Part shown: in pieces, positions 5,615-58,400 of the stretch
How positions within the stretch are numbered: position 1 is the stretch's first letter
Layout of the letters: every line of letters begins with the position of its first letter
Assembly (NCBI GenBank): GCA_030141605.1
Contig: JAQGDQ010000253.1
Coordinates: forward strand, 183,411 to 247,410
DNA length: 64,000 bases
Direction of reading: 5' to 3'
DNA from: Tubiluchus corallicola
Lineage: Eukaryota > Priapulida > Priapulimorpha > Priapulimorphida > Tubiluchidae
Translations under genes and position numbers: made by a program
The notes under the pieces: generated by a model
Seen by the model: only the letters and a program-made list of their open reading frames with translations
What the model was told of the DNA's origin: nothing
The model's database searches: none

Positions 5615-5779
<165 letters not shown>

Positions 5780-8420: not shown

Positions 8421-9403
8421 TGATGTCTAATTACAGAAGAAAAGTTTACATCACTGTTTAAAATGTTCTTGCATATAAAATGTTTTCACTCTTATTCAGC
8501 CCGACGTGTAAACTGTATGCACATTTTCTGTGAATCACATCAAAATAAATAATATTAAATATTAATTCTTACTCAACTAAATTTTACTTAACTGTTCAAC
8601 TATACATTTATGTACAACATTTCCTTAGGTCAGTTAATATAAGACCTATAATTCAATATGCATTGTAATATATTACAAGTAATTGCAGAGCTGTGTACAC
8701 AAATATTACAAAGAAACATTATTTATTCATATACACAATTATAGTCCATCAAACAATGAGTAAGTTAATAATGTCCAGCCCTGCCATCTTCAAGCAGGAA
8801 TAAACAAACTCGCGTAATTTGTGTGTCAATGCAACAGAATTCCCGAGAAAAATCAGTGACAGTGATTGATGAGCTGCCTGTCTTTGATTCTCAATAAATT
8901 TCGAAAGAACATTTTCATGGTTATTGAAGAATGATTTGTAATGCCAGTACAGGCACATCGACTTTCTATGTCAAAAATCTGCACGTCTGATTTCAATAAC
9001 CAACACAACAGTTCATGTAAAAACACGGAACAAAACACAAACTGTTAGAAAAATGGCAAGCTTCACAAACAAACAAACAAAAATTGCTCACATCTTGCTG
9101 CAAGAGAGGTACACTCTTGTTGGTCCCCATGAAAATAATGGTGAATAGATGACAGAAATTCAAAATTTTCATTGCAACAGGAGTAAAATGGAAATGGCTA
9201 CAGAAGATTCCTCCGTGACAGCACACTCTCTTATCTACGTAATAAAATATTAATTTTCAACATACTTCCTTTGTTAGCACATAAAAAGAAGCAAAGGCCT
9301 GTTATACTATCACAAGCTTATATAACAAGGTCTATCAGAGTCCAAAATTTTTTACTTCCGACCTGTTGCGCTCTTAAATCAAGGACACTACGTACAAATA
9401 TAA
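8421..9403. other. no gene seen
   Basis: AT-rich. The minus-strand frames at 8,749-9,226 are cysteine- and phenylalanine-rich without a recognisable domain or good splice borders. They could lie in a long 3' UTR of the golgin gene but there is no direct support. Confidence 0.35.
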
Positions 9404-9764
9404 CTACGGCCATATCACGTTGAAAACACCAGTTCTCGTCTGATCACCGAAGTTAAGCAACATAGAGCCTGGCTAGTGCCCTGAAGGCGGACCAGTGCAG
9501 CATGCTCACTGACTCCAGCAGCTCCTGCGGTCAACCTGGTGCCAAACGTATCGCTCCGCTTTCCTTTGGACTATAACCAGGAAGGAATTGGGCAACTCAG
9601 GATCTCCATACACCTTGCCCAGGCGTGCGCCCAGGAGAGGCCACTCCAGTGATTCAAGAATCAGACTTCCTCAGCCACAGTCGATGCTGCAGCTCCATGA
9701 ATGTGATCAATAGCTGACTCTCTTGGCGCACACTCCATTGTCTTCTGAGATAGAAGGATGCCAC
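9404..9764 (+). mobile_element. 5S-rRNA-headed SINE, copy 2 (internal deletion)
   Basis: It starts CTACGGCCATATCACGTTGA, matching the beginning of 5S rRNA, and keeps CGTCTGATCACCGAAGTTAA. After CCTGGCTAGTG at 9,478 it jumps to the SINE body at CCCTGAAGGCGGACCAGTGC. Compared with copy 1 it lacks the 3' third of the 5S head and the first part of the body. The rest of the body is colinear to GAAGGATGCCA. No clear (AAT)n tail follows. Confidence 0.85.
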
Positions 9765-21200: not shown

Positions 21201-24200
21201 TTGGATTCAATTTCTTTCTTGGCCTCCTCCATAAAGGCCATGTTCTCTTTACACATATTCTGCTCAGCTAGCAAAGATGTGATGGAAGATTCCATGCGCT
21301 CATTCGTCTTTGAAAGTTCTTCCAGAGCAGCTTCTTTAACTTTCATGCTGTCTTCCAATGCAACATTTGTAGCATGTGCATGTTCAAATTTTTCTTTAAA
21401 TAATTTCAGTTTTTCCAAGAGTTTTTTGAACTTAATTTTCAAAACTTCCAAATCATGTTTTGTGTGCTCCAACTCTTTGTTTGAATCCTCACCTGAAGAA
21501 GCAGCAGAATTAGATACACAAGAGGAAGCATATAAGGGTACCTCTGCCTTTACAACTTGCTCTACCAAGTTTGTACTGCCACATAAAGAAGGTACTGATG
21601 TGATATCATTGTCCATAATTTTATCTGTGGCTGCTACTCTTGCTTCAAGTGCTTTTATTTTTGCAGATTGTTCTGTAAGCTGGTCATCTTTATTTTGCAG
21701 TGTAGACAACATTGTTCTAGCTTGATTTTGTAATACATTAACTTCATTAGTTAACCTGAACATGTCTAAATTGGTAGCTTCCAGCTCAGTTCTTAATGCA
21801 GCCTCGGTTTCCTTTAAAAAATTTATTTGTCGTTCGAACTCTAACATTTTATTGTGCTCTGTTTCAGAAATTTCATGAATAACCTCATGCTGATCGAGAA
21901 GGAACTTACTGTCAGTTTCTAATTGTGCAACTTCCAAATTTTTACTTTCAAGTTGATGCTCCAACTTGTTTTCCTTTTCTACTTCTTGTTGCAGAACTTC
22001 TTCTAATTCTTCTTTAACATTTTCAAGTTCTTTGTAAGTTTTCTTTATGCTTTCTAATTCAAGCCCTTTGTTTTTTAGTTCTTCTGCTATACGAAGCTTG
22101 TCCGATCTCTCACATTCAAGTTCAGACTGTAGGACATCTATAACTGATTTTGAGTTATTAGTGGCTTTCTGTAAGTCCTCTACAGCATGTTCTACATCAG
22201 TCAGTTTTTCTTGTAACAGTTCTCTTTCATATACAGCTTCATCAAGCTTGTATTTTAATTCCTTGTTTAATTCACACTGGTCTTTCAACTCAGACTGAAC
22301 AGCTGATATGATGTCCATTTTTTCATGAACGTTGTTTTTCACTGCATTTAACTCCGTGTCTTTACTTAAAAATAAATTCTCTATTTCTTGTAACATTTGG
22401 CAATAATCAGTACACTCTAACTGTTTTGCAGATTTTGCACAGAAATTTTCCTCGAGCTGTTTCATATTGCCTCTGTTGATACAAACTGTTTCATTTAGAC
22501 CAGCTATAGCTGCATGCAAGTATTCAATGTTTTTAGTCTTTCCTATTAATTCTTCCTGAAGCAAATCCACTGAATGTCGTGCATCCTTTAACTGTTTCTC
22601 AACAGTTTCAGTTTTACATTTAATGTCATCCTGCAACTTTTTATGCTCCTTTTGCAACTGTTTCTGTTCAATAACCAGCACAGAGTTTGCTTCATTTAAA
22701 GCTTTATTTGCATCTTCAGTGTCCTGCATCTCCAAATGAAGCTTCTGGTTTTCACATTTATAACTTTCTAAAGAATTCTGAAGAATTACTAAAGCAGACT
22801 CTTTGTCACATAACGAATTTCGAAGTTTTTCTACTTTTACATATAGATTAGCTATTTTGTTCTCAAGTGTGCTTGTACATAAATTGTATTGCTCAATTTG
22901 CAATTGCTGGTCCATCTGTAGCTTCATCGAATAATCATCCAGTTCTTGTTTCACTTTCTTTAATTTCAAGTCAGCATTTTCATTTGCTGCCTCAAATGCA
23001 GTTTTTAATTCACATATTTCTTCACTGAATACAAATTCTCTTTGGGTTAATTCAGCAGCCAAGTTTCTCACCATCTCATCCTTACACGAAAGGGCATTTT
23101 CAAAATCAAAGGCATTACGCTCTAATTGTGTTGTTAGCTCCTGTATATGAGCATCCATGTCATCTTTTATTTTCTTCTTTTCATCTGTTAATGCCTCTAT
23201 TTTTTTCTCTAGCTCTGCATAATTATGTTCTAAATTAGTAATTATCAAATTGTTCTCTTCAATTTGGTTAAGGTGTTTCTCTATTTCACTGTTCTTTGCT
23301 ACTTTCAGATCTTCTAGTTGTTTAGCACTATTAAACTTTGTGCTCTTAATCAAACCTCTGAGCTTTTTGTTTTCCTTATCCAACCTCTCTTTGTCATTTT
23401 CCAAATCACATATTTTTTCAGAGAATGACTGCAATTGTGCTTCATTGGTCTCATTCATTTCATTGGTCTGTGTTTCGTATAGAAGCTTGAGGTTTTCCAG
23501 TTCTTGTTTCTTCTGACTTTCGAAGCTACCATATTCTTTGGTTAACTCACCTAGCTGGTTTAACAAAGCATGCTTTTCATCATTAACCACTTTATCATTC
23601 TGCACTGAGGCTGCCTCAAGTTTTTCTATTTCACCAAGTAATACCACTTTTTCATCATACATAGTTTCTGCATCACACTGCAGGGCAGATACTTGGACAG
23701 CTAACTCAGACAATTCTGTTTTATAGTCTGCATTTGTCATCGTAAGAAGAGTCAAAGCTGACTGTAACCTGTCTGTCTCTAGATTACCAGCACTTTTCAA
23801 GGTATCTATCTCACTTTCATGTGCCAATTCCATGTCTTCAATCTTAGCAGTCAGCTTCTGGTATAGCTCACAAATCATTTGATCCTTTTCAAATTTTAAA
23901 CCTTCAAGTTCTTGCAATTTTGAAGCGTTAAGTTCCACTAATTTTTCGTCATATTTTGATTTAAGAAGGTCTTCTTCAATTTCTAGTTCTTCAATTTCTC
24001 TCTGCTTCACAAATAATAAATCTTCTATTTCCTTTTCTTTTCTAAATGCTATTTCAAGAAGTTTCTCTTGCATGTTATGCAGCTCCATTTCCTTTGCAGT
24101 AACAGTTGCATTTGATGTTGCATAAGCATTCATAATATCAGATTTGTTGGCATCCAACAAGAGCTGCATTTCCTTGTCCTTTTCTTCGATATTTTTTACA

Positions 24201-27200
24201 TGCTGAGTTTCTTTAGCATACAACTCAGACTTCAAAAACTTGACAACATCGAATTCATTTTTTAATTCCGTGTCAAGAGTATTAACACGTTCACTTACAT
24301 CTAGTTTCCACGAAGCAAAATCACTCTTCATGTCAGAAACCAGTTGCTCCTGTTCATCCATTATGTCCTTCACGAAGCTAACACGCTCGTTAACGAGTTC
24401 TACCAAATTGTCACGCTCAGCTACTTGAACAACGAGCTGTTTACATTCTTTTTGTGTTGTTTCAAGATCTAACATCAAAGCATCAATTTTTGTTTTTAAA
24501 TCTGTTAATTCAGCTTCATTCTTTTCAGATTTCTTTCTTGATAATTCTAGTTCTTCTGACAGTGATTGCACAACGTTGTTAGACTGATCCACCTCACTCT
24601 TGCTAACAGCAAGTCTGGTGCTATATCCTTCAAGGTTAATAGTCATTTCTTCAATTTTTGACTGTGCTTGATGTAGGTCACTTTGTAAAGACATCTTCTC
24701 CATCCCATGTGCCTCAAGTTTTGACTCCAATTCTTCTTTATAATTTTGAAGTCCTTTCACAGATTCTTTAGCTGTCTCGTATTTCTTGCTCAGTTCATCT
24801 AATTTTAGCCTTAGTTCAGAGTTCAGTATTTCAGTCTCATTCAAATGATCAGTAGTGAACTGCAGTTCCATTTCTCTCTGAGACAACGTTGACTGCAGTG
24901 AAGCATTTGCAGATTTTGTAGATTCATAGCTTTTATTCAGCTCTAACATCTTACTTTTCAGATCAGACGCTACTATTTTTCCATTCTCAACTCTTGTTTC
25001 TAGATCATTAATAGTTTCTTTTGAATTTCTCAAAGCAGTTTGCAGTTCCGATACATACGTTAATGAAGTCTCATTTTGGGACTCTAAAACGGAAATGGAT
25101 TGACTTTTCTCTGAAAGATCATTTTGCAGAATTTTCACATTTTTCGAAAGCGATGTGATTTCATCGCTTAGTTTCGTAACTTGTTTGCTGCTGTCAGCAC
25201 CTAATGCATCCAAGTGTGCTTGTTTAGACTCCAATTCAAGTTTCAAATTCTGTATATGTACATTATGTTCATCACAAGTTTGTTGTAGGTCATAATTTTC
25301 TTTTTTTGCTATTTCTAGTTTTCGCTCAAGATCTGCTTTGCCTTCTTGTAAGCTAGAAACATTCATTTTTTCTTCCTCTACTGCAGAGCTTTGTCGCACA
25401 AATTTTTTCTCCAACTCTGTAATTTGTGTTAGTAAGTCATCATTTTGTTTAACAACAGAACCATACTTTCCATCCAAATAATTTACATTGTCATTAGCTT
25501 TGGACAGGTTTGACTGACAGATTTGCAGAGACTCACTTTCAATAGCAAGCTTATCTTTTAACTGTTGGGTAGCTAACCTTTCAATTGCTATTTGCTGTTT
25601 TAGGTGCTGCCTATCCTCATTTAATGTGGCTAAAGAATTTTCATGTACTTTTTTTACTTCTATTTCTTCATTTAATTTCTCTTCAATGGATTGCTTACTT
25701 TTCACCATTTCATTAAACTTAAATTCAATTGAATCTTTACCTTTTAGCAATTCTTCCAATTGGAAGATGAGCGAGTCTTTCGTCTTTGTTACATCTTTCA
25801 ACTGAAACTCACAAGTTTGTTTACCTGTAAGCGCTTCATTCAGCTGTATTTTAAGGCAATCTCTATCTCTGGCTGTCTCTTCAAGTTGCAGCTCAGTAGC
25901 TTGCTTAGTATTTAATGTGTCTTGTAGTTGTAAGCCAGTGGTTTCTTTACCACACAATGCTTCTTTCAGTTGTAATTTCATATCATCCTCGGCTTTTACC
26001 ATTGTTTCCAACTGTAATGCAACAGCTTCTTTGGCATTCATTGTTTCTTGCAGTTGCAACTTCTCAGCTTCGTTAGCTTTCAGTGCTTCTTGCAGTTGTA
26101 ATCCAGTGGTATCTTTAGCATGCAATGCTTCTTCCAGTTGTAATTTAACAGCTTCTTCAGCTTTTACTGTTGCTTCCAACTGTACTTCAAGATCTTTTTT
26201 AGCATTCAGTGCATATTCAAGTTGTGAACCAATAGATTCTCTAGCATGTTCTGCTTCTTCCAGTTGTAATGTAACATCTTCTTTAGATTTTACTGTTGCC
26301 TCCAACTGTGCTACAATAGCTTCTTTGGCACTCACTGTCTCCTGCAGCTCCAATTTCACAGCTTCATTAGCATTCATTGATTCTTCGAGTTGTACACCAA
26401 TGGATTCTTTAGAATGTTCTGCTTCTTCCAGTTGAAATCTAACAGCTTCTTCAGCTTTCACTCTTGCTTCCAACTGTAATTCAACAGCTTCTTTAGCATT
26501 CAGTGCCTCTTTGAGTTGTGAACCAATAGATTCTCTAGCATGTTCTGCTTCTTCCAGTTGTAATGTAACATCTTCTTTAGCTTTTACTGTTGCCTCCAAC
26601 TGTACTACAATAGCTTCTTTGGCACTCACTGTCTCCTGCAGCTCCAATTTCACAGCTTCATTAGCATTCATTGATTCTTCGAGTTGTAAACCAATGGCAT
26701 CTTTAGCATGCAATGCTTCTTCTAGTTGCAATTTAACAGCCTCTTCAGCTTTTACTGTTGCTTCCAACTGTAATTCTATAGCTTTTTTGGCATTCAATGT
26801 CTCCTGCAGCTCCAATTTCACAGCTTCATTAGCATTCATTGATTCTTCGAGTTGTACACCAATGGAGTCTTTAGAATGTTCTGCTTCTTCCAGTTGAAAT
26901 CTAACAGTTTCTTTAGCTTTTTCTGTTGCTTTTAACTGTACTTCAAGGCCTTGTTTAGCATTCAGTGCCTCTTCGAGTTGTGAGCCAATAGATTCTCTAG
27001 CATGTTCTGCTTCCTCCAGTTGTAATATAACATCTTCTTTAGCTTTTACTGTTGCTTCCAACTGTAATTCTACAGCTTTTCTGGCATTCAGTGCCTCTCC
27101 AAGTTGTGAGCCAACAGATTCTCTAGCATGTTCTGCTTCCTCCAGTTGTAATGTAACAGTTTCTTTAGCTCTTTGTGTTGCTTCTAACTGTACTTCAACA

Positions 27201-30200
27201 GCTTTTTTAGCATTCACAGCGTCTTCGAGTTCCAAGCCATTCGACTCTCTAGCAAGTTTTGCTTCTTCCAGCTGTGATATAACAGTTTCTTTAGCTTTTT
27301 CTGTTGCTTTTAACTGCACTTCAACATCTTTTTTAGCATTCAGTGCCTCTTCAAGTTGCAAACCAATAGATTCTCTAGCATGTTCTGCTTCTTCCAGTTG
27401 TAACGTAACATCTTCTTTAGCTTTTACTGTTGCCTCCAACTGTACTACAATAGCTTCTTTGGCACTCACTGTCTCTTGCAGCTGCAATTTCACAGCTTCG
27501 TTAGCTTTCAGTGCTTCTTGTAGTTGTAATCCAGTGGCATCTTTAGCATGCAATGCTTCGTCTAGTTGCAATTTAACAGCTTCTTCAGCTTTTACTGTTG
27601 CTTTCAACTGTAATTCAACAGCTTCTTTAGCATTCACAGCCTGTTTGAGTTGTAAACCAATGGCATCTTTAGCATGCAATGCTTCTTCTAGTTGCAATTT
27701 AACAGCCTCTTCAGCTTTTACTGTTGCTTCCAACTGTAATTCTATAGCTTTTTTGGCATTCAATGTCTCCTGCAGCTCCAATTTCACAGCTTCATTAGCA
27801 TTCATTGATTCTTCGAGTTGTACACCAATGGAGTCTTTAGAATGTTCTGCTTCTTCCAGTTGAAATCTAACAGTTTCTTTAGCTTTTTCTGTTGCTTTTA
27901 ACTGTACTTCAAGGCCTTGTTTAGCATTCAGTGCCTCTTCGAGTTGTGAGCCAATAGATTCTCTAGCATGTTCTGCTTCCTCCAGTTGTAATATAACATC
28001 TTCTTTAGCTTTTACTGTTGCTTCCAACTGTAATTCTACAGCTATTCTGGCATTCAGTGCCTCTCCAAGTTGTGAGCCAACAGATTCTCTAGCATGTTCT
28101 GCTTCCTCCAGTTGTAATGTAACAGTTTCTTTAGCTCTTTGTGTTGCTTCTAACTGTACTTCAACAGCTTTTTTAGCATTCACAGCGTCTTCGAGTTCCA
28201 AGCCATTCGACTCTCTAGCAAGTTTTGCTTCTTCCAGCTGTGATATAACAGTTTCTTTAGCTTTTTCTGTTGCTTTTAACTGCACTTCAACATCTTTTTT
28301 AGCATTCAGTGCCTCTTCAAGTTGCAAACCAATAGATTCTCTAGCATGTTCTGCTTCTTCCAGTTGTAACGTAACATCTTCTTTAGCTTTTACTGTTGCC
28401 TCCAACTGTACTACAATAGCTTCTTTGGCACTCACTGTCTCTTGCAGCTGCAATTTCACAGCTTCGTTAGCTTTCAGTGCTTCTTGTAGTTGTAATCCAG
28501 TGGCATCTTTAGCATGCAATGCTTCGTCTAGTTGCAATTTAACAGCTTCTTTAGCTTTTACTGTTGCTTCTAACTGTACTAGAACAGCTTCTTTAGCATT
28601 CACAGCCTCTTCGAGTTGTGCACCAATAGATTCTCTAGCATGTTCTGCTTCTTCCAGTTGTAACGTAACAACTTCTTTAGCTTTTATTGTTGCTTCCAAT
28701 TGTACTACAATAGCTTCTTTGGCACTCACTGTCTCTTGCAGTTCCAATTTCACAGCTTCATTAGTATTCATTGATTCTTTGAATTGTAAACCAATGGATT
28801 CTTTAGAATGCAATGCTTCTTCCAACTGTAATTCAACAGCTTCTTTAGCATTCACAAGCTGTTCTAGTTCTGAGCCAATGGATTCTCTAGCATGTTCTGC
28901 TTCCTCCAGCTGTAATGTAACAGTTTCTTTAGCTTTTTGTGTTGCTTTTAGCTGTACTTCAACATCTTCTTTAGCATTTAGTGCCTCTTTGAGTTGTGAG
29001 CCAATGGATTCCCTAGCATCTTCTGCTTCTTCCAGTTGCATCTTAACAGCTTCTTTAGCCTTTGCTATTTCTGCCAGCTGTAGTTCAAGATCTTGTTTAG
29101 CATTCAGTACCTCTTCTAGTTGTGAGCCAATAGATTCTCTAGCATGTTCTCCTTCTTCCAGTTGTAACGTAACATCTTCTTTAGCTTTTACTGTTGCCTC
29201 CAACTGTACTACAATAGCTTCTTTGGCATTCACTGTCTCTTGCAGCTCCAATTTCACAGCTTCATTAGCTTTCAGTGCTTCTTGCAGTTGTAATCCAGTG
29301 GCATCTTTAGCATGTAATGTTTCTTCTAGTTGCAATTTAACAGCTTCTTCAGCTTTTACTGTTGCTTTCAACTGTAATTCAACAGCTTCTTTAGCATTCA
29401 CAGCCTGTTTGAGTTGTAAGCCAATGGATTCTCTAGCATCTTCTGCTTCTTCCAGTTGAATCTTAACAGCTTCTTTAGCCTTTGCTATTTCTGCCAACTG
29501 TAGTTCAAGATCTTGTTTAGCATTCAGTGCCTCTTCTAGTTGTGAGCCAATAGATTCTCTAGCATCTTCTGCTTCCTCCAGTTGTAAAGTAACATCTTCT
29601 TTAGCTTTTATTGTTGCTTCCAATTGTACTACAATGGCTTCTTTAGCATTTAGTGCCTCTTTGAGTTGTGAGCCAATGGATTCTCTAGCATGTTCTGCTT
29701 CTTCCAGTTGTAACGTAACATCTTCTTTAGTTTTTACTGTTGCCTCCAACTGTACTACAATAGCTTCTTTAGCACTGACTGTCTCTTGCAGCTCCAATTT
29801 CGCAGCTTCGTTAGCTTTCAGTGCTTCTTGCAGTTGTAAACCAGTGGCACCTTTAGCATGCAATGATTCTTCTAGTTGCACTTTGACAGCTTCTTCAGCT
29901 TTTACAGTTGCTTCTAACTGTACTAGAACAGCTTCTTTAGCATTCAGTGCCTCTTTGAGTTGTGAGCCAATAGATTCTCTAGCATCTTCTGCTTCTTCCA
30001 GTAGCGTCTTAACAGCTTCTTTAGCCTTTGCTATTTCTGCCAACTGTACTTCAACATCTTCTTTGGCATTCACTGTCTGCTGCAGCTCCAATTTCAGAGC
30101 TTCTTTAGCATCGACCGCCTCTTGAAATTGTAAGACAATGGATTCCTTATCATGTACTGCTTCTTCCAGTTGTAATTTAACAGCCTCTTTATCTTTAATT

Positions 30201-33200
30201 ATAGTTTTCAAATTGAATTCAACAGCTTTTTTGGCATTGACTGTTTCTTCAAGTAGCAAATTAATAGCTTCACTGTTCTTAATGGACTCTGCTAACTGTA
30301 ATTCGATGGCTTCTTTAACCATGGTGACTTCTTCCAATTTTAAGTGAATGTTATTCTTGTCCCTTAATGATGTTTCTAATTGCGCTTTAATACTATCTTT
30401 ACTTTTCAGTGCTTCCTGTAATTGGAACTCTATGGCATCTTTATTTGCTTCTAAGCCTTCAAGTTGTTCATTCAGTCTACTTTTCTCCTCATTAAGCTCA
30501 TCAATGTTCTTTGTATGTTCGCTCTTGGTAGTAAATTCAACCAATAATGTCTCATCCTTACTGGCAATCTCTACTTGTAGTTTTTCAATTTCTGACTGCA
30601 GCTGATCAAATTGTTCCTTCAAATTGTTATTTGCAATCCTAGCATCAGCTAACAAGCCCTCCAATCTCACAATCTCCATATCTTGTTTGGCATGATTTTC
30701 CTCGAGTGCTGTTTTCTCAAGCAAGACATTTTCTAGATTGGCACTTAACAGTGACAGTTGTTCTCGTTTAGAATTCAATTCTGACTCCACAGTTGCAGTT
30801 TCTTGAAGCACGCTACAAATTTTGGTTTTTGATTCTTCCAGATCAACAGTTAACAATTTTACTTTTTCCTCATAAGATAATTTCTCTTTCAAGTGTTCTT
30901 CTGCTTTCTCTGCATAATTTGCTAATTCTGCCCTGGCGCTTTCTAGTTGTGATTCGGTGTCATAAAGTTGATTCTGTGTACATTGGAGCAGTTCCAAGAG
31001 TTTAGATACCTCATTTTTCAAAGAAGAAATCTCCTCAAATAACTCTGCGGTTTGAGTACGAGATAAATTCAATTTTTCAGTTAATAAAGACACACTTTGC
31101 TCAGCCAATTCTAGCTTCTTACCAATATTGTCATTGCTTATACGATTATCCTCAAGGGTCAAAGATAAAATAGAAATTTTTTGCTCTGACAATTCCAAAT
31201 TCTTTTCCATTTCTGCCTTTTTACTATTTGCCAAGTAAATGCTTTCACTAAGTGCTGTCAAATGATTTCTGACTACAGACAAATCTAGTGCTATGTCAGT
31301 ATTTTCCTCGATTGATTTACAAGTTTGTGAGTCAGTCTCCTTTTTAGCTTGATCAACAACTTGCTTTAGTTGCAGCAGTTCATTTTGCATAGTCTTTAAC
31401 AGCTTCACCATGTCAATGTTCTCATCATAAAGTATCTTGTTTTCATTCTGACACAGAATCAGATCATTAGTAGCAGAATTTTTCTCTAATTTTAAGTCAT
31501 CAACAGTCTCTTGCAATCTACTTAACTGACACTCCAAATCATTTTTGCCAGTTAATACTACTTCCAATGTATCGCTTACACTCGATTTTGATGTTTGCAG
31601 CTCCTTGAGTTCTAAGTTTACTTGCTTCAAGTTCATTTCCAATGACTGAATTTTAGCTAGCAAATTGGACTTTTCAGATTCTAGGCTACCAACAGAGGCA
31701 GTATTTTCGTCAAGCTTTTCCTGATGCTCTTTCACCAACTTTTTAATATCACTCTGAAGACTATTAATGTCAAGTGACTGAGTGTCGTTCTCTTTGCTTA
31801 ATCTCTCCACAACTTCATCTTTTTCTTGGTTACTAGTTTTTAGTTCATTTATTTCTTGTTGCAAATTTTCAATAATCATTTCATGTGCTTCAGCAGTGTT
31901 TGTTTTCTCAGTATTTTCTTTACGTAAATGAGTGACAGTTTCTTCCAATTCAGAAACATTTAATTGGTTTGCTCGAACTTCTTTTTCAGCGACCAGAAGC
32001 TGCTCCTTTTGCTTAGCGCATTCTGATATTAAAAGTTCCGTTTCATTTTCTAACTCAACCACACGTGTGTTCAAAGTGTTAGTGTTTGTTTCTAATTCAA
32101 AATTTGTTTGTTGCAAACCATGCACATTATCTCTAAGATTTTGCAATACACACTCAAGCTCAGACAGTTTAGACTGCAATTCAATTTTCACTTGTACTAA
32201 CCTGTCATTTTCTCCTTGAAGCTGCTCGACTTCAATCTTCTGCCCACGGATTTCCGAATGCAAAGAAGCTTGCAGGTTCCTCAAGTCAACTTTTTCCACT
32301 TCATGTTGATGCTCTTTGGTGGCGTATAGTTGTTCCTGATTTGCCAACTCTGTTCGCAGTTCCTCCAGCGCTGCGTCACGTTCCTGTAACTCTTTTCTGC
32401 TTTTCTCTATATCTAGATTACAATTCTGCAATTGACCACTTAGTTCACAAGCTTTAGTTTCAGATAGTTCTAGTTCTCTCAAGACATTATTGTGCTTATT
32501 TATAGTTTGCAACAGAACATCCGTTTTTTCAGAAAGCTCTGCCTTGGCACCATTAAGCTGGGAAACTACAGTCTCATAACTGTTCTTCAGCTCACTGCGG
32601 TTTTCATCCAGGTTATGAAGCTCTCTTGTTATACTTTCAAGCTCACATTCTTTGTTTGAGAGAGATAACTCAACTGTCTTTAACTTTTCTTCGAGCTCGT
32701 GTTTGACAATACTAATATCTTCAATAAACTGTTCCTTTTCTTGCAACATGGATTTTAAATTCCTTTCACTTTCTTCCTTTTCCGAGAGCTGTTCATGTTG
32801 GACATTTGATTGCAATTCCAAATTGTGATGCAACTCTGTGTTTTCCTTTTCTAAATCAACATATTTTGACTGCAGAACTTCAGTATCACACTTCAACTGT
32901 TCAACAGTTTGTTCAGTAATTTTTACTAACTGCAACAGTTCTTCATTATATCGCTCAGCATCAGAAAGCTTATGATGAGCTTCAGTTAGTGCTGTTTCTG
33001 TGGTTAAGCATGTTTCTTGAAATGTTGATAGCTCTGTCTTTACTAACTGTAACTCTTCAGTTAGTTGGACAGCAGTTATGTCTGCCATTTGAAGTCGCTT
33101 TTGCAGTGTATGCCTTTCTGTGTCCAATTCACTCTGTAAAACAGTTTTTTCTTCTATACTTTGTGCCAGTTGTTGTTTTGTTTGTTGCAGTTGCATAGTA

Positions 33201-36200
33201 ACTGAATCTATTGAGAAACTTTTATCTTCGACATCATTTTTGAGTACTTCGAGCTCAGAATTTTGTAACTCCACGGTTACTCTCAACTGTTCTGCATCCT
33301 GTGCATGTTGTGACGTTAAAGCCACTTGTTCGCCAACTTTAGTTTCTAACTGTGCTGATACATGAGAAATTTCACTTAATCTGTTTTGTAATTCTTCATT
33401 TTTTATAGTGGCTGTCTGGACATTAGCTTCTAAAACTGATATCTGCTGGTTGTTGCTAGAAATACAAGTTTCCCGCTGTTTTAATTTTTCCTCAAGTTCG
33501 TTCACTAGCTGTTCAGATATAGACAGTTTTTCCTGTACTGCTACTGCATTAGTTTGCTCAACTGACAGTGCAGATGTAATGTCATTCATCTTCTCTTGTT
33601 CGAGGGCAAGCTTTTGTGTCAAGACGCTGACATTTTCTTCCAAGTTACCAATTTGGGTAGTATCAGTCTCAGATTTTTTGGACAACTCGTTATTTATCTT
33701 CTCCAATTCCTTGCATTTAGTTTCAAAAGATTGAAGGGAGTCTTGTAACATAGAAATATGCGTAACCTTGTCCTTCTCCAACTGGTTTTCTCTTTCTTCA
33801 CTAGTACGTAGAGCTTCCTGCCTGCTTTCTAGCTGCTCAGCTGTAATGGCAAATTTTTCCCGAAGTGTTACATTTTCACTTTCAACGGTGCCGAGTTTAA
33901 CCAAAAGCTTATCAGTTTCTGAGCTCTTTTCGTTAACTGTTAATTTAAGCTCCTTAGTTTGTTTTTCGCTTTCTTCAAACTGTTTCTGAAGTGTTGTGAA
34001 ATCATGCTGAAGCTTTTCATGTTCCAAGCTTGTTGTCGAGCAGGCATCTTTAATTTCATCTATTTTAGCCAGATTATGTTCACGTTCATCTTTTAGGGAA
34101 CACATCTGCGTTCGCAAATGCTCTACTTCATTTTGAGATGCCACTATTAATTCATTAAGGCGACCTGTTTCTACATTGAGCTTTTCTTCGGCAGAAAGTA
34201 AGTCAGATTTCAAATGCGTGTTTTCTCTTTCATAATTGGAAATAAGCTCTTTTAATTTCTGAATTTCTTCCGCTCGTTGAGCACAGGTTACCTGCCAAGT
34301 GTCTAGCTTTTCGTTACTGCTTTCTCTCATGGCAGCTAGTGAATTCTTTAGTTCAGCAATTTCTTCATTAAGAGCAGTTTGTTTTTCTTCATAATCAGTG
34401 ACAGAAGCTGACAGTGCTTCATAAGCCACATTTTTCTCTGACAAGGTAGATGTTAATTCATCCAACTGAACAGTATAAGCCCGAATCTGACCCTCTTTGG
34501 CCTGTATATTTTGTACAGCCAACTCCAGCTCGCAAGATACAGCTGCGTGATCTCCTTCCAACTGTTGATATCGAGAATCTGCTTTACCTAAATCATTGGT
34601 TACTGAAACCTTTTCCTGTTCGAGCTGTTCAATTCTATGCTGCAAGTCATTTAGAAACTTCTCCTTTTCTTCTAGTGCCATAGTTTGCTCTTCATATTTT
34701 CCTCTCTCCTCTGCTAATTCATTTTGAACAGAGCTTAAACTTGACTTGAGAGATTCTAACTCAGTTTCATATTTCTCAAGCATATCTCTGGAAGTACTAA
34801 GCTCGGAAGTCAATTCTGCTGATATAGATGATTGATTAACTAGCTCATTTTCCAACTCGGAAAGCTGACCTAGCAAGGATTTGACCTTTTCTTGATACTT
34901 CTGTTCTTCTTCTGACTTCCCAGACTTTGTTAAATCAATTTCTGTTTCTAGAGAGGACAAAGATCGTTTAGTCTCTGCTAAATTTTTTTCTAAAGACTCG
35001 ACAGTCTCCCGCAGCTCTTGTTTTTGCTGCTCATTTGTCTGTAACTGACTTAATAATTTCTCTATATTTTCTTCTTTATGGTCAATCACCTTTTCTAGTC
35101 TTCCTACTTCATCATTCTTGTCAGCTATGTCTAAAATAGCCTTTTCCAAATCTCCCTTGATGTTACCCATAGCTTCCTTAACTGTATCAGTTTCCTTTTT
35201 ACTTCTCTGCAGTGCTGCTAAAACGTCCTGATAAGTTTTTTCCTGGGCAAGCAATCGATCATTCAAGTCATTATTTTTTGCAGCTAAGTCAGAATTGGTC
35301 TTATCAACGCTAACAGCTTTTTCTACGGACAAATGTAGCTTGTTCTCTAGGTCTGCTACCACATTGAGCTTGGCTTCTATCACAGATTTAGCTTCTTCTA
35401 ATTCACGCTGGATGGATGTACACAACTGAGTTTTCTCGTCTAAACGATTTTGTAAGTTTTTTACAATTGCATCAGTATCACTGTTATCTTTACAAAAGTT
35501 ACTTATCGTTTTCTCTTTCTCTTCTAAATTGGATATCAGCTTTGAAGCAGCAGTGTCTTTCTCTAGCAGCTGATCCTTAAGCTGTGCGATGAGTTCAGTT
35601 TTAGCTTCCAGCTCAGTTTCTGCTCGAGTCGAAGCACCTGCTTGTTCGTGAAGGCGTTGCTCAAGACTGCTTGTAAGTTGATTGCTATCTTTCAGTTCAG
35701 ATTCAAGTCTGTTAATCACAGTTAGTTTTTCCTGCAGTTGGCAAATCAGATTACCCTGTTCTAGGTTTACTTCATTCAGGTTCACGACACGCTCCTGCAG
35801 ATCAGCTAGCATGCCATTCTTTGCTTCCAATTGTTCCAAAGATGACTGCAAATCGCCCTGCAAAATAAAAGGGATATTATAATTGTAGTTTGTTTTTCGT
35901 TCTGTTATCACACTGAGGTTAGCTTCTATTACAGATATAGCTTCTAATTCAAGTATAGCTTTCTGTATGGATATAAACAAACATAAACGAATAGTACTTT
36001 AATAGACGTGGTTCTCACTTTATGGTATTAAGTGCATATGCACACAAACTTTCACAAATATGTCCTAGATAGAAAAACATTCTAGCCAATTGGTACCAAC
36101 ACTAGTGCAGAGTAACTACTATTTTTATAGCTCCAATAAAGAAGTCCAAAATCTGCAAATAGCACATACTATTTAGACAGTTACTAGGATTAGTGTCACT

Positions 36201-46535: not shown

Positions 46536-49094
46536 ATGCCTTTACAAGAAGTGCAAAAGGCAATGCTGAAACTTGCTTATGTACCGACTTCTATGAAGCT
46601 GAGCTGTCCCGTGAAAAAATTCACTCCTTTCAAGAAATGCAAGGAAGCCGCACTTGGTCGATACCAACAGAAAGCTGTAACAGCTATAAAGTCAGCTCCA
46701 AAGCTAGAGCCACTACAGCAACAGTTACCATATCGGCCAATTCTACAACGCATTATCACATGGTCACGAGATACAGTAGCAGCGCGATGTCGCCGTCGAG
46801 CAGCTGAAACTTTTAAAACTGGTCAGAGTGTATTGGTTCCTGCATTTGGACTTGCTGGTTTAGCTCTAGTATCTAGTTCAGAAGACGAATCTATCCAACC
46901 CGACGTAAATACAAAAAATGGTGATTTACTTTGGAACCAGTTTACGGCTAAGTACACAAGTACTGACTGTGAAGTCGGTTTAAATGCAATCAGCAGCTGT
47001 CTGAAAGATTATGAGTTTGGTGAATACATCGCTAAAGGTTGTAATGGTGCTGTTTATGCGGCAAGACTTCGAGAGAATTCAAAAGTAGAGTCCCTAAATT
47101 GTCCGACTACTGAGACCCCTGGTGTGGTTGATGACTGTGATGTCAGTTCTTCTGAGTTCAGCTTTGATGTTCTAAGCGAGGAAGCCTTGTCATCTGAAGA
47201 CAGCTTTACAGTCATTTCTAGTGGAAGTAGTACAAAGCTGGATGAGGATGTCACCTATGACAATATGGCGATCAAAGTTGTTTTTAATTACAGCTATGAT
47301 ACAGAGGAATCTGATGCAGCAGTGGTACAGTGCAAACACCTGCAAAGAGAGGCTGTCCCAGCAAAGGCTGTGTTTGCTTTTGGAGAAATGGCACCATGGG
47401 AAAACGGAAGCAGAGTGAAGAAGAAAACACTGCCTGCTCACTTGAACATTGTTGATATGCCATGTGTGATGTACGGACAGTGGCCTGAAGAGCTACTACC
47501 AACTGGACTAGAAGAGTATCCTGAGGCACTTCCACCTCTGCTGAATCCAGGCAGTGGATTCGGGCAACAGTCAACTTTATTTCTGGTGATGAAACGGTAT
47601 CCGATTACATTAAGGCAGTACTTGGAGTCTTCAAATCCTTCTCCATATATTAGACTGCTTTTGAATTCTCTCGAAGTCGGTTTAAATGCAATCAGCAGCT
47701 GTCTGAAAGATTATGAGTTTGGTGAATACATCGCTAAAGGCTGTAATGGTGCTGTTTATGCGGCGAGACTTCGAGAGAATTCAAAAGTAGAGTCCCTAAA
47801 TTGTCCGGCTACTGAGACCTCTGGTGTGGTTGATGACTGTGATGTCAGTTCTTCTGAGTTCAGCTTTGATGTTCTAAGCGAGGAAGCCTTGTCATCTGAA
47901 GACAGCTTTACAGTCATTTCTAGTGGAAGTAGTACAAAGCTGGATGAGGATATCACCTATGACAATATGGCGATCAAAGTTGTTTTTAATTACAGCTATG
48001 ATACAGAGGAATCTGATGCAGCAGTGGTACAGTGCAAACACCTGCAAAGAGAGGCTGTCCCAGCAAAGGCTGTGTTTGCTTTTGGAGAAATGGCACCATG
48101 GGAAAACGGAAGCAGAGTGAAGAAGAAAACACTGCCTGCTCACTTGAACATTGTTGATATGCCATGTGTGATGTACGGACAGTGGCCTGAAGAGCTACTA
48201 CCAACTGGACTAGAAGAGTATCCTGAGGCACTTCCACCTCTGCTGAATCCAGGCAGTGGATTTGGGCAACAGTCAACTTTATTTCTGGTGATGAAACGGT
48301 ATCCGATTACATTAAGGCAGTACTTGGAGTCTTCAAATCCTTCTCCATATATTAGACTGCTTTTGTTTGCACAGCTTGTAGAAGGGATAACACACCTGTA
48401 TCATAATGGCCTTGCACACAGAGATATCAAGTCTGACAATATCTTATTGGATTTCAATAATGATGATTCTCCTAGAGTTGCTATTGGCGATTTTGGCTGC
48501 TGTGGCTGGCTGGAAGAAGAACCAGTTGTAGTTGGTAATCGTAACTTAATGGCACCTGAAATTGCTAAGGGATTAATCTCACAGACTAAAGTTAAAGACT
48601 ATTCAAAAGCTGACCTTTGGGCTGCAGGCACATTAGCATATGAAATTTTTGGAACTTCTGCTGAAAACCCCTTTTACCAACAGCTTGACAGCATCAGTTA
48701 CTGCAGTGACCAGCTGCCAAAGCTAAAAACTCGTTTGGATTACAGGAAAGGCAAAATTGTGGAGCGATTAGTCTTGAAGATGCTAAATGAGAATCCAGCC
48801 AAAAGACCTTCGCCAGATGTTGTTGCAACAATTCTTGCCATTTTGCTTTGGGCCCCAGTGTCTTGGTGGCACTCCCGCACTCTGCATGTTCCTACTGTAT
48901 CTGACCTTGGGTCATGGCAAGAAATCTTAACCTGTCTTTGCCACCAGTTTGCTTCTTTTCCAGACATCAATAAATGGCAGCTCTGTACTACTGAGTATCA
49001 ACTTCTTCTGTCTTTTCTTAATAGGTTTAGACTTTGTTTTGTCCAGTCTGCTATAAATGATTTGCAAACATATGTCAAACTTATGACCCATTAA
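46536..49094 (+). CDS. PINK1: PINK1-type mitochondrial serine/threonine kinase with duplicated N-lobe, intronless
   Basis: 852 residues in one exon; an in-frame TGA lies upstream of the ATG. PINK1 phosphorylates ubiquitin and Parkin on damaged mitochondria. Residues 1-95 are basic, as in a mitochondrial presequence. SVLVPAFGLAGLALVSSS (98-115) matches the PINK1 membrane segment. A kinase N-lobe appears twice: glycine loop IAKGCNGAVY at 165-174 and 399-408, and AIK lysines K247 and K481. One C-lobe follows: HRDIKSDN (catalytic D630), GDFGCC (D652), LMAPEI, DYSKADLWAAGTLAYEIFG, KRPSPDVVA and the PINK1-type C-terminal extension. FLVMKRYP.TLRQYL and SPYIRLLL are PINK1-specific. Residues 146-376 and 380-610 are the duplicate, joined by Asn-Ser-Leu. 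Without the extra copy the length would be about 618, close to the 581 of human PINK1. How a second N-lobe affects folding is unknown. Confidence 0.92.
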   Translation: MPLQEVQKAMLKLAYVPTSMKLSCPVKKFTPFKKCKEAALGRYQQKAVTAIKSAPKLEPLQQQLPYRPILQRIITWSRDTVAARCRRRAAETFKTGQSVLVPAFGLAGLALVSSSEDESIQPDVNTKNGDLLWNQFTAKYTSTDCEVGLNAISSCLKDYEFGEYIAKGCNGAVYAARLRENSKVESLNCPTTETPGVVDDCDVSSSEFSFDVLSEEALSSEDSFTVISSGSSTKLDEDVTYDNMAIKVVFNYSYDTEESDAAVVQCKHLQREAVPAKAVFAFGEMAPWENGSRVKKKTLPAHLNIVDMPCVMYGQWPEELLPTGLEEYPEALPPLLNPGSGFGQQSTLFLVMKRYPITLRQYLESSNPSPYIRLLLNSLEVGLNAISSCLKDYEFGEYIAKGCNGAVYAARLRENSKVESLNCPATETSGVVDDCDVSSSEFSFDVLSEEALSSEDSFTVISSGSSTKLDEDITYDNMAIKVVFNYSYDTEESDAAVVQCKHLQREAVPAKAVFAFGEMAPWENGSRVKKKTLPAHLNIVDMPCVMYGQWPEELLPTGLEEYPEALPPLLNPGSGFGQQSTLFLVMKRYPITLRQYLESSNPSPYIRLLLFAQLVEGITHLYHNGLAHRDIKSDNILLDFNNDDSPRVAIGDFGCCGWLEEEPVVVGNRNLMAPEIAKGLISQTKVKDYSKADLWAAGTLAYEIFGTSAENPFYQQLDSISYCSDQLPKLKTRLDYRKGKIVERLVLKMLNENPAKRPSPDVVATILAILLWAPVSWWHSRTLHVPTVSDLGSWQEILTCLCHQFASFPDINKWQLCTTEYQLLLSFLNRFRLCFVQSAINDLQTYVKLMTH
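46971..47663 (+). repeat. PINK1 N-lobe duplication, copy 1
   Basis: 693 bp (231 codons) matching 47,673-48,365. I count six differences, all transitions: at KG(C) T/C, (A)AR A/G, Thr/Ala A/G, Pro/Ser C/T, Val/Ile G/A and G(F)G C/T. Only three change the protein. Copy 1 ends after the codons for SPYIRLLL, with nothing of the C-lobe. Confidence 0.97.
47664..47672 (+). other. 9-bp templated filler at the duplication junction
   Basis: AATTCTCTC separates the copies. With its flanks, 47,659-47,678 reads TTTTGAATTCTCTCGAAGTC, the exact reverse complement of 47,065-47,084 inside copy 1 (and of 47,767-47,786 in copy 2). Microhomologies TTTTG and GAAGTC flank the filler. Confidence 0.9.
47673..48365 (+). 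repeat. PINK1 N-lobe duplication, copy 2
   Basis: It begins GAAGTCGGTTTAAATGCAAT, as copy 1 does, and continues without a break into the C-lobe (FAQLVEGITHLYHNG), so it is the copy in native context downstream. Copy 1 is the one in native context upstream. Offset 702 bp = 234 codons. Confidence 0.97.
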
Positions 49095-53399: not shown

Positions 53400-53591
53400 T
53401 ATCGCTTTTGTGAGCACTTTGTTTGTTCTATTGTTTGTAATCAGTATTTGTTTCTACAGTTTTATACAGATCTGAAGATCATTTCCTCATGGCAAAGTTT
53501 TAGGAACTGCAAGCGCAAAGTATACTGTGATGCCGTTCTGCAAAGATTATATTTGATCAGTTAAATTTAGTCTCAGCGTAACTGCGATCAT

Positions 53592-55355
53592 ATGGTAATA
53601 GAAACATTGCCACTTAGTCAACCTGTGTCCCAGGACAAAGTTCGTTTTGTTTGCATTTCTGACACCCATAGCCTTTATTTTACATTAAAAGGACATGTTC
53701 CACCTGGCGATGTTCTTATACATGCTGGGGACCTGACAAGAATAGGAGACTTGCGGGAAATACTTACATTAAACAATTTTTTAGGTACGTGAATAAGAAA
53801 ATAAATTTTAAGTCTGCAGTTCACAATGAAAATAAAGGAAGACAGGATGATTTTTCCTATACTACCTTCATGTACAGTAAAAAGTATACATTCTAACACC
53901 AATAGTACTGCAAAAGTGTTTCTGATAATTATATAATGGACTAAAATCTTAATTAACGGCCATGCGAGCCCAACTATTGATGACATCACAAACTAACATA
54001 ATTTTCAAAAGCAAAAATATTCCACGAGCATGTTGCACGTGTTTACAAAAGCAAAAGTTGAAATACAGTGCTACTGCAAGAGATTCAGTGCATTGTAATA
54101 AAACTCGGTAAGTTTTAAGATAAAGATTCAAATTTCAAATTTGCTGCTGTACTCACACATGAGCTGTCGAGCATGTGCAGTATGTCACAAATGAACACCT
54201 TTGAACTGAGAGGTACAGAACCTGTCTTTCGTGAACGCGTTTTCTAGCGAATGGCGAAGAACTAGTGGCGCAAATACAAAATTTTGCATTTGTATGGTAA
54301 TAATTGTTTCGCGTAAGTCATTTTTGGAAAAACGTGTTTTGTTTCAACATTTTAAAGAGTAGATTGTTCGGACCTGCAGTTTAAGATTGTTTCCAGTTTT
54401 GCTTTAAGTTTATTTGAAAATGTAAGTTATTTAGTTGCAAAATATGACTGCAATGTAATTGTGCTGCAGTAAGCTGTGATTTAACGTGTACATAGTCTGA
54501 GCCATTGAAACATGCTTGCTTGCGCTGGGCTGATTTACAAACAATGTTTAAGAAAACTAACTCCACATGTACAAATGTAATTGTTGAACTAATAGAGGCT
54601 AGTGTAATTTTCAATGATTCTACTGCTTTTATATGGTTAAGATATAAAACAACTGCTGTCGTAATTGTAGCATGCTCAGATTCAATTTCAATTTCGTTTT
54701 GCTTAGCTTGATTTACGGCATTTATAGTCTTTTCCTAACTGTGTGGTAACAGGACAGATAATATTATGTGTTTCCAAGTGTACAGTACGCTGTATTGGCC
54801 TCTCATTTGTTTATTTGCTAATTTACTTCATATTTGCATGGGGCAGCATGACTTAAGTTAGGCATGTTTGTGGTAATGACTAAAATAACTCGCTAATGTC
54901 TAGGATTCACCAGACACAGTTACTAGATATGGATCGGATCCAGATTTACGTAGAATAACTGTTATGTACTTGCAATATATTAGTCTTCAAGAACTAAAAA
55001 GATGTGATTTTAAAACATCTAGAAAAGCACCAAGTTTGATAGTTATAAATGTGCACAGAGACCAAGCAAATATTCAAAACTGCTGAATTTAATGTAACAA
55101 AAAGTAATGTTTAGCCACTAGTCAGTAGCCACAGACCATTCTACCTAGCACAGCACAAAAACTGTTACTATTTGGATTCCTCATACAGTCGAAAATCCGA
55201 TAAATGCGGACCCGGTCAGAATAGAAATTTTTAATTTTTACTAATTTTAGAAAAGTCTAGACCTGGTGCATCCCTAGCTAATTTCAAAGACCAATAAGCA
55301 TATACCAGACAACATTCTAACACACTGTCTGGCCATTTGACAGTCTTGGTTCTTG

Positions 55356-55406
<51 letters not shown>

Positions 55407-58400
55407 GGCAAATGCCCTTTGCAATGTAGTCACAAACTATATTGACTAGACCTGTGATATAGATTATGCAGTATATGTATGTCTTCAAATAGTATGCCTT
55501 CAAAATTATATATATTTGAAGTTTACCGTTTTGCATGCTTAGTATAACACCTATATATGGGAGATTTTGCAGCAATCATTTTGTTTCATTTTTATTAGAT
55601 TCTTTACCTCACCCATATAAAGTATTAATAGCAGGAAATCATGACTACTGCTTTGAAGACAACTTTGTGCCAGGGTTATCAGACATCACCGTTTTACAAC
55701 AGGTATGTACTGTGTGATGGTAATCACGTTGGTAAAATTCTAATTTTGGGCATTCGTCAAAGATGGTTATTTTAGAAGGCTGATCCTATGGCAAAAAATT
55801 ACTTTTATAGTGGGTATAGTAGTTTCTAGTATTATGGCTCCATATATATATATATATATATATATACATACATACAGTAGGCGCATTCAAAGCAAAACTG
55901 CTACGCTAGCGTATTAGTGCATGATAAACGTACCTGCTTACAAACAAAACGGCACTTAAGATGATTGTTTGTACCTGTACAATAGCGCACAAAAGGGAAG
56001 TAGAAATGACATGAGTAGGAAAGGCTCTTTGGGCACATACAAATGTCTTATTTTAAGCATGTGAAGGAAAAATATTGAGTCAATTATGCGGAGTTATTTG
56101 AGTCAATTACCGACAGTTTTAATGTAGATTTAAATAGAAGCATACCAAGTGTTTTTGAGTCAATTAAGCGATTGAATCTATTAACCGTGAGTCTATTAGT
56201 CGGCGCCGACTGCATATATATCAGGCAATTTGATATGTATAAGGCCAACTTGATATGTAACACATTAATAATAGTAATTCTTTCAGGCAGCAATGACAGC
56301 AAAAGCTTTTAATAATTTTTTCTTACCAGTATCACTAGTACATAGAATTTGTAATCAACTATATCTGGTGCCTATTAATTTTTATGCAAAATTAATACTT
56401 TTTTCTTGCTTCTATCTATAGTATGGTGTAACTAATCCAAAAGAGTTGTTGACATCCCCTGGAGTCATTTATTTACAAGACACCCACACGGAAATTCTAG
56501 GGCTGAAGGTCTACGGGTCACCATGGCAACCAACTTACTGTAGCTGGAGTTTCAACTTAGACAGGGGTAGCGAAATAAGAGAAAAATGGGACCTGATACC
56601 CAGTGGTATTGACGTTCTAGTGACACATGGTCCGCCAGCAGGTTTGTTGCAAATTTGCAAATAATTTGCATTTAAAAAACAGTTTGTGAACAAGTCACTC
56701 CGCTTCTCTCACTCTTTTTGGGATGTATGAATGTAGGAAAAACTTATGAATGAGTGCCACTATGGTATCTATATATTAATTCTGCTGGTATGTTATATAT
56801 GAGATTCGAGGCTACAGCTTGGACGAAGGCACCATTTGCGATTTTTTTCGAAATTTTGATCAAACAGCATGTTGAAAAAACGTCATAGCGGCGCCTGGTG
56901 GGACTCTCGAAAAGAGATATATAGCTCTTTAGAAAGAGCAAGAACAGGGCTACACGATGATGTGGGCTGCATTTTAGGACACGTCCACTGAGAGGAGTAT
57001 CGGCGAGTTAATTAGATGTTCTATTTTCCGCAATTTTCGCTTGGAAAACTGCTGATGCAAAGCCATTGTTCTGATGTCATCCATTATACTCTGTCTATAA
57101 CCTTATAACTTTAATTCAGTAAAAAGCTGCTGCGGCTGACTTTGCGTTGTAAATGAAGACTACGTAGGATGTTCGCGTATTTTTGATTATAAGTGTATTT
57201 ATACGCAATTTTTTTGCGGGGCCTTTGCTAGTTTTACCATTAATTTACCACACATATTTGTTGTAGGTCATGGCGATTTTGCTTTTTGTGGAAGAAATGT
57301 TGGCTGTGAAGATTTACTGGATGTTGTACAGCAAAGGGTCAAACCAAAAGTGCATGTTTTTGGTCACATTCATGAAGGTATATATAATCAAATAATTATC
57401 TTGCAGTAGGATTGATTCCCTCCTGATTTTACATGCACAAGAAATACATGATTGTTTAACCCTTATAGGGTCACGATTTTTTTACAACCGATTTTGGTAA
57501 CCGGGGCATAAAAAATTACCCCCACCATAATTCGTAAATTACTTTTGATAAACCGCCGTGTTTCATTAGTAAACAGCAACAGCATAATTTGTGGTTATGC
57601 TGACCACCGTAGGATACTTTATACCTCTGCTTAAAGACATGTGACTTACTAGTAATACGAAATTTAAATTCACTTAGTTACGTTCCCTTATCTATGCTGG
57701 AATAACTGTAGACAACCGACATTGCTAGCGCGTGTGCAAAAATCATTGTTATTTTGAATTTATTGTCTAGTTCTACGTCAGCATACAGACGTCTGACATT
57801 TTGTTTTATCAGATACATCGCCTGTATAATGTATAGACAAGCGAAGTAAAGTTTCGACAATTTTAAAAAATCGACATATTGCATTCTCACTTTTATTTCG
57901 TGGTGAGACAATGTGCCTAAAATAAATAACTGAAAGTATTTTGTGCACAAAACATATTTAGAAAAAGTCATAGAAAAGGTTTACTGGGATGCGTATGGTA
58001 AAAGGGTAAAATGCAAAAATTCCAGTCCGTGGGTAATTTTTTACCTCCCGGTGACCCTACAAGGGTTAAACTTCAGCTAATGAGTGCATGGCTCCGAGAC
58101 AAAACCGTCCAGCAGTTAGTTCACGTAGTATACAAATTATATCGAGAGCCTTCAAGTACCAAAAAAATCGAAAATAGGTTCTAATACGAAAATGTTAAAT
58201 TTGTGCATATTATGCACTAAATATATTAAAAATTTATGTTCCAATTTACATTCCTTGGTCATCTTTTACAGTTCTAAAACTTTAATTTTCTAACCAACAT
58301 GTACAGGAAAATGCTTAATTTGCAGTTATGCTTTCGTTACTGTGCACAAACCAAAATATAGTCATGCATAAGAAAATAAGAAACAACCGAATTTTATAGT

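Follow-up and report, generated by a model that had tools for sequence, protein, structure and literature searches.

A PINK1 gene with an in-frame tandem duplication of the kinase N-lobe and an inverted templated junction in the priapulid Tubiluchus corallicola

The PINK1 gene considered here lies in a 64,000-nucleotide stretch of the Tubiluchus corallicola genome, hereafter the window, which is C2099:183411-247410 of a 343.5-Mb assembly in 2344 contigs; unless a contig is named, coordinates are those of the window. The coding sequence occupies 46536-49094 on the plus strand, from an ATG at 46536 to a stop codon ending at 49094, and its 852 codons form one open frame for which an intron is unnecessary. 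Inside this frame are two direct copies of a 693-bp unit, at 46971-47663 and 47673-48365, with a spacing of 702 and without indels. The copies are identical at 687 of 693 positions, and the six differences are all transitions (copy 1/copy 2: 47039/47741 T/C, 47063/47765 A/G, 47106/47808 A/G, 47118/47820 C/T, 47250/47952 G/A and 47561/48263 C/T). Three of the differences are synonymous and three change an amino acid (T191A, P195S, V239I), the latter all falling within a Ser/Asp/Glu-rich insert that lies between the glycine loop and the ATP lysine. Between the copies is a 9-bp filler, AATTCTCTC at 47664-47672, which encodes Asn-Ser-Leu.

What has been duplicated is the N-lobe of the kinase. Copy 1 (residues 146-376) comprises the glycine loop, the insert, K247 and E272, and reaches as far as the start of helix alpha-E, while copy 2 (residues 380-610) continues without a break into the C-lobe, which is the arrangement of other PINK1s. 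The C-lobe and the C-terminal region (CTR) are present once, on the plus strand at 48366-49091. By motif, the P-loop begins at residues 168 and 402, and HRD (628-630) and DFG (652-654) each occur a single time; by motif and alignment together the catalytic landmarks are K247/K481, the alpha-C glutamates E272/E506, D630 and D652-G654, for which the PhPINK1 equivalents of the first two are Lys193 and Glu214 (PMC8828467). The P-loop cysteines C169 and C403 align with PhPINK1 Cys169. As for identity, the 852-residue protein has as its top match in the PDB the PINK1 chain 5yj9 (1.7e-64, query residues 471-844), and the best 12 among 60 of its 954 PDB matches are PINK1. The 693-bp unit searched alone gives 12 distinct PDB sequences at E<=0.001, and all 12 are PINK1. 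The sequence-only reading of this DNA had assigned the gene to PINK1 and the unit to its N-lobe, correctly; it had also described two copies of about 99% identity, six transitions apart in one frame, with two glycine loops and two ATP lysines (K247, K481) to a single catalytic loop and a single DFG, and this picture is borne out in full.

Other parts of the protein are less easily placed. Pfam finds one kinase domain, with Pkinase at residues 578-761 and PK_Tyr_Ser-Thr across the same span; a DUF1463 match at 183-259 falls below the Pfam cut-off and is taken as composition, and the part of the protein up to the end of copy 1, searched alone, has no Pfam match. In a PDB search with the first 192 residues, the first 145 have no PINK1 match of their own: at E<=10 it gave 13 matches, all weak (the best at 0.11), and the 9 of them that are PINK1 all start at residue 153 or later, in the glycine-loop part. 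A hydrophobic stretch picked out by eye at residues 100-112 (46833-46871, plus strand) is a candidate transmembrane segment, and its position resembles that of the PhPINK1 transmembrane segment at 101-117 (PMC8828467). A candidate N-helix (NTE) at residues 128-141 (46917-46958, plus strand) lies outside the duplicated block and is placed by its position relative to the PhPINK1 N-helix at 121-135 (PMC8828467), together with the P-loop alignment. S259 and S493, candidates for the serine phosphorylated in trans, sit in the loop; HMMER sets E258 opposite Ser202, the autophosphorylated serine of PhPINK1, and a shift of one residue would bring the serine into register, the alignment being ambiguous here and the chain numbering our own derivation.

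The junction between the copies, which the sequence-only reading did not remark upon, points to the way in which the duplication came about. The 21 nucleotides 47658-47678 consist of the 6-nt end of copy 1, the 9-nt filler and the 6-nt start of copy 2, and they are the exact reverse complement of 47065-47085 in copy 1 and of 47767-47787 in copy 2; with the latter the junction forms a 21-bp inverted repeat with an 88-nt loop. Could a random filler give such a match? When all 262,144 possible 9-mers were compared with both strands of the unit, only the observed filler reached 21 nt and the runner-up reached 17, so that a random filler, at 1 in 262,144, is ruled out. Compared with the whole window, five of the same fillers give matches of 18-19 nt, and for three the match extends to 49, 49 and 89 nt; these last we take to be the native copy flanks and the self-match of the junction. 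An inverted bridge of the same kind (6 nt, a gap of 0-20 and 6 nt) is available for 88 of 20,000 random breakpoint pairs in the PINK1 frame. The junction also contains GAATTC, and we considered a chimera made by EcoRI cloning, which is ruled out as well: the native end at copy 1 lacks the site, and the inverted match extends past GAATTC on both sides.

The segment 47650-47795 folds at -57.5 kcal/mol (z -7.2), a value equalled by none of 200 shuffles, while the corresponding segment at the start of copy 1 (46956-47093) gives z -0.24, with 79 of 200 shuffles as good. In the PINK1 mRNA the junction would thus give a strong hairpin at 47650-47795, its stem 21 bp long or longer, and translation as well as reverse transcription and PCR may suffer from it.

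We read the junction as a scar of theta-type end joining because an inverted templated match of 21 nt is flanked by 6-nt homologies on both sides. Theta-mediated joining makes inverted templated insertions of 3-30 bp and, in Drosophila, favors a 6-nt loop, as described in PMC11292364. In the scenario that we propose, ends at 46971 and 47663 of a single-copy gene would have been joined, coming from sister chromatids, from homologues or from either side of one staggered break. At 46971 the 3' end of the minus strand (GACTTC) would fold back onto a GAAGTC that lies 94 nt further back in the same strand, with a loop of 88 nt. The folded-back end would then copy 15 nt and so acquire a terminal CAAAAG, which could pair with the CTTTTG of the other end and close the join. 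The outcome would be 693 bp doubled, 9 bp of filler left behind and the frame kept. The strand, the order of events and the identity of the polymerase are what we infer here from the form of the scar. Exons of a Pol theta gene, searched one by one, are present in the same assembly at C2043; they are of family-A polymerase type, and one of them matches 8ef9 at 4.1e-20, with theta chains ranking above Pol nu and bacterial Pol I.

With some reserve, then, we lean towards the reading that the duplication is a real, young structural variant of PINK1 that would have arisen by theta-type end joining with an inverted templated insertion. Several considerations pull the other way. The fold-back loop is 88 nt here, longer than the 6 nt favored in Drosophila (PMC11292364), and therefore another route of template switching, a replicative one (MMBIR), fits equally well, as it would leave the same scar. 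At mouse breaks with 3' overhangs, most small tandem duplications are attributed in PMC8355091 to CST/Pol alpha and Ku80, not to Pol theta; those that theta does make in mouse cells are described there as larger and accompanied by microhomology, so that this work speaks on both sides. Finally, the effect on the protein, to which we return below, is one that we infer.

Is the duplication in the animal at all? One might suspect the assembly or the library, with two haplotypes placed one after the other, or a chimera from amplification carried into the consensus. The divergence of the copies, 0.87%, is within the range of animal heterozygosity, and amplification chimeras through inverted priming are known. 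False haplotype duplications are common in assemblies and usually come with a gap and half depth, as PMC9516828 has it, whereas no gap separates the two copies of the unit. N is absent between the copies and throughout the window. A contiguous stretch of 256,900 bases, out of the 325,131 of C2099, has just two N runs, of 5,793 and 5,000 bases, which may be gaps or masked sequence. The 5,000-base run ends directly before the start of the window, and the N run nearest to the copies is about 47 kb away. An in-vitro chimera of one molecule would yield identical copies, and we know of no way for an assembler or a haplotype overlap to write a 9-bp filler as an inverted copy of the unit, which also counts against an artefact. 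In one further test, the region of a neighboring MPPED2-like gene had no second near-identical full-length place, so that haplotypes seem to be collapsed in this part of the assembly. Taking these points together we hold an artefact to be distinctly unlikely.

A DNA search of the whole assembly listed only these two places for the unit. A query with the kinase part gave 17 listed matches, of which two are the PINK1 gene, the best other kinase-like one standing at 1.7e-6. The assembly thus yielded neither a single-copy PINK1 nor a second haplotype nor an intron-bearing parent, although a gene in masked or missing sequence would escape these searches. We had thought of a retrocopy of an intron-bearing PINK1, and rejected it, there being no other PINK1 found in the assembly.

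Within the 256,900-base stretch there are 61 rows of direct repeats lying near each other (at least 150 bp, at least 90% identical, starts within 4 kb), and the identity is at least 98% in two of them; young tandem duplications are therefore not unique to PINK1 in this region. The second such pair, at C2099:248916-249782, has a 431-bp period and 99.3% identity, and its members lie head to tail with a 5-nt overlap. Some 16 kb lie between it and the stop codon of PINK1, and weaker repeats of 91-92% overlap the same place.

A tandem duplication within an exon may also create an intron, and here such an event would leave the protein as it was (the Rogers model): a 702-bp intron would be removed and normal PINK1 made. 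Precedents for introns gained by tandem duplication are given in PMC4974935. Copy 1 holds exactly one AGGT (47036-47039), which could serve as an AG|GT donor, with the AG of copy 2 as acceptor, and removal of 47038-47739 would restore a single-copy reading; the substitution 47741 T>C, moreover, hits the AGGT of copy 2, which is now AGGC. Against this, the donor scores -0.39 and the acceptor -0.43 bits (59th percentile among the GT and 45th among the AG dinucleotides of the window), and a polypyrimidine tract is absent. The MPPED2-like neighbor, which served as the splice-site reference, scores 5.4-10.5 at four donors and 5.2-5.9 at three acceptors, its boundaries having been set by eye; all scores come from a generic weight matrix. 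Since the splice signals at PINK1 are weak, seamless splicing is set aside, and we give a new intron the slimmest of chances.

The single-exon layout is not free of difficulty, for stronger GT-AG pairs that keep the frame do occur inside it, for example a donor at 47122 (8.4 bits) with an acceptor at 47550 (8.5) or at 48963 (11.9), and pairs such as 47122/47550 match the introns of the neighbor in strength. We take these as chance pairs; as the DNA reads, they would cut the coding sequence of PINK1 at sites that are also in the single-copy gene.

How old is the duplication, and has selection acted on it? Random transitions would be synonymous in 35% of cases, and a 3:3 ratio of synonymous to nonsynonymous is thus unremarkable (P of at least 3 synonymous of 6, 0.36); the six differences give no signal of selection on the copies. 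Five of the six are located in the first 280 nt, for which a post hoc test gives P 0.04. If the differences post-date the duplication, the frame should have taken up about 11 substitutions along this lineage, and without constraint it would stay open with a probability of 0.43, 0.27 or 0.18 at indel:substitution ratios of 0.05, 0.10 and 0.15, these ratios and the transition weight being assumed values. If each of the joined ends derives from a different homologue, the differences would be ordinary single-nucleotide polymorphisms and therefore silent on age, and the event may be very recent. In either case, whether the differences arose after the duplication or between homologues, the open frame is weak evidence. 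The sequence-only reading had argued that a frame kept through six substitutions points to youth or tolerance, an argument that carries little weight given a split like that of random changes and the chances of an open frame just listed.

One would think that a kinase with an added half might simply be dead, and the allele null or a decaying pseudogene, with a misfolded product and a frame open merely through recency. Copy 1, stopping as it does at the start of helix alpha-E, would be expected to expose core residues, and the chance of about 0.18-0.43 that an unconstrained frame is still open, at the assumed indel rates, is in keeping with this. On the other hand, this is the sole PINK1 found in the assembly, and its 852 codons are without a stop or a frameshift; we hold a null allele to be unlikely.

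The layout of the protein suggests a milder effect. Copy 2, the C-lobe and the C-terminal region make up a complete canonical kinase, and copy 1 an extra N-lobe behind a probable N-helix. In PINK1 the N-helix, which follows directly after the membrane segment, packs on the C-terminal region, and activation is by a symmetric dimer in which the serine loop of the N-lobe enters the active site of the partner, according to PMC8828467. Mutations in the N-helix:CTR interface impair both stabilization at the TOM complex and activation, while CTE L539F did not under the conditions used (PMC8767193). In the present protein the candidate N-helix is set 234 extra residues away from the complete kinase, and because these residues split the two, weaker activation on mitochondria is to be expected. 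The product would fold and be able to act, yet both its docking on the TOM complex through N-helix:CTR and its activation by the symmetric dimer would be weakened. A hypomorphic or near-neutral allele is accordingly our tentative expectation.

Might the extra lobe instead be put to use? The P-loop cysteines face each other in the PINK1 dimer, and the serine loop that is phosphorylated in trans belongs to the N-lobe (PMC8828467). Because PINK1 structures place this loop in the N-lobe, the suggestion of the sequence-only reading that an added N-lobe could act as a decoy or dimer mimic is coherent, if unproven. As a functional gain, the extra N-lobe would be a tethered partner that offers its serine loop in cis, or blocks the dimer, and is kept by selection. 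Both copies retain the N-lobe landmarks, among them the lysine and the cysteine of the P-loop (C169, C403); a single Ser202-Asp334 contact suffices for PhPINK1 oligomers (PMC8828467); and a duplicated whole EGFR kinase acts as an intra-molecular dimer (PMC7925532). The six differences are without a selection signal, however, the alignment at the phospho-serine is ambiguous, and the same 234 residues between candidate N-helix and kinase argue against a gain, as defects of N-helix:CTR docking impair PINK1 (PMC8767193). We find a gain very doubtful. A gain and a null allele share the origin proposed above and differ in their consequence. A bolder version, for us a long shot, is that the animal's only PINK1 is a three-lobe kinase whose tethered N-lobe feeds its serine loop in-chain, so that activation at TOM can do without a symmetric dimer, or is held down by a competitor within the chain.

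The partner of PINK1 in its pathway, parkin, is probably present in the genome, to judge from zf-RING_12 and IBR_2 matches that, as in parkin, share one frame (426 aa, C390:450388-451302, no intron between the domains). We note that the PINK1 and parkin-like genes are single frames, in contrast to the intron-bearing MPPED2-like and Pol theta genes.

Several other features of the window and the assembly deserve mention. The MPPED2-like metallophosphoesterase gene lies at 53571-57378 on the plus strand and has at least four exons, one of them tested (7.9e-21) and the others drawn by eye; at about 56838-57235, one of its introns contains part of a repeat family that recurs many times in the assembly at about 85-91% identity. 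On the minus strand, 18566-35998 is a giant coiled-coil open frame of 5,810 codons, within which an array of a 42-bp (14-residue) repeat extends over about 25700-30200, and by eye coiled-coil exons continue on the same strand to about 43894. Two matches to 5S rRNA are at 5502-5620 (minus strand, 84.4 bits, beside TAA/TAT repeats) and 9402-9506 (plus strand, 47.7 bits). Elsewhere in the assembly there are seven polA genes, single frames of 812-946 aa (C1658, C1700, C1721, C1830, C1729, C1997 and C2126), which by frame length are probably bacterial, in which case the assembly would include bacteria living with the animal. Four of the seven score alike, at 536.7 bits, and are perhaps on redundant contigs.

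Should the variant prove real and be expressed, it would amount to a natural experiment on PINK1, in which the N-helix is parted from the kinase and the trans-phosphorylated lobe is doubled; the N-helix link and that lobe are two features on which the activation of PINK1 on mitochondria is held to depend. It would also be a clean DNA record of error-prone end joining that doubles part of a gene in frame, apparently in one event. A search for relatives in genome and viral contig collections gave 11 and 3 pattern matches, none of them a relative by tblastn, and among the papers listed in the literature searched, judged by titles and the beginnings of abstracts, there was no report of a duplicated PINK1. 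Novelty at the DNA level is low, as the scar is of a known class; it is the PINK1 variant itself that is without a report in that literature.

How does the locus compare with systems already described? With the PINK1s of Pediculus and Tribolium in the PDB it shares the kinase core, the Lys, HRD and DFG motifs and the C-terminal region, and with Pediculus the P-loop Cys; it differs in the second N-lobe before the kinase and in the long Ser/Asp/Glu-rich insert between the glycine loop and the ATP lysine. Like the inverted templated insertions of theta joining described in PMC11292364, the junction is a short inverse copy of nearby DNA with microhomology at both ends; here the loop is 88 nt, the outcome is a tandem duplication of 693 bp, and the part of theta is putative. 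In the helq-1 mutants of C. elegans (PMC8078821) a tandem duplication is likewise associated with an inverted repeat, but there the repeat pre-exists, whereas here the junction creates it; in those worms 7 of 17 tandem duplications were tied to inverted repeats, and a replicative route was proposed. Intron gain in potato RdRp and in ATP2A1, as given in PMC4974935, has in common with PINK1 an exonic tandem duplication with AGGT in the unit, and differs in that the splice signals here are weak. The EGFR kinase domain duplication (PMC7925532) is, like this one, an in-frame internal duplication of a kinase in one chain; there, whole catalytic domains are doubled in tumors, and here the N-lobe alone, in an animal assembly.

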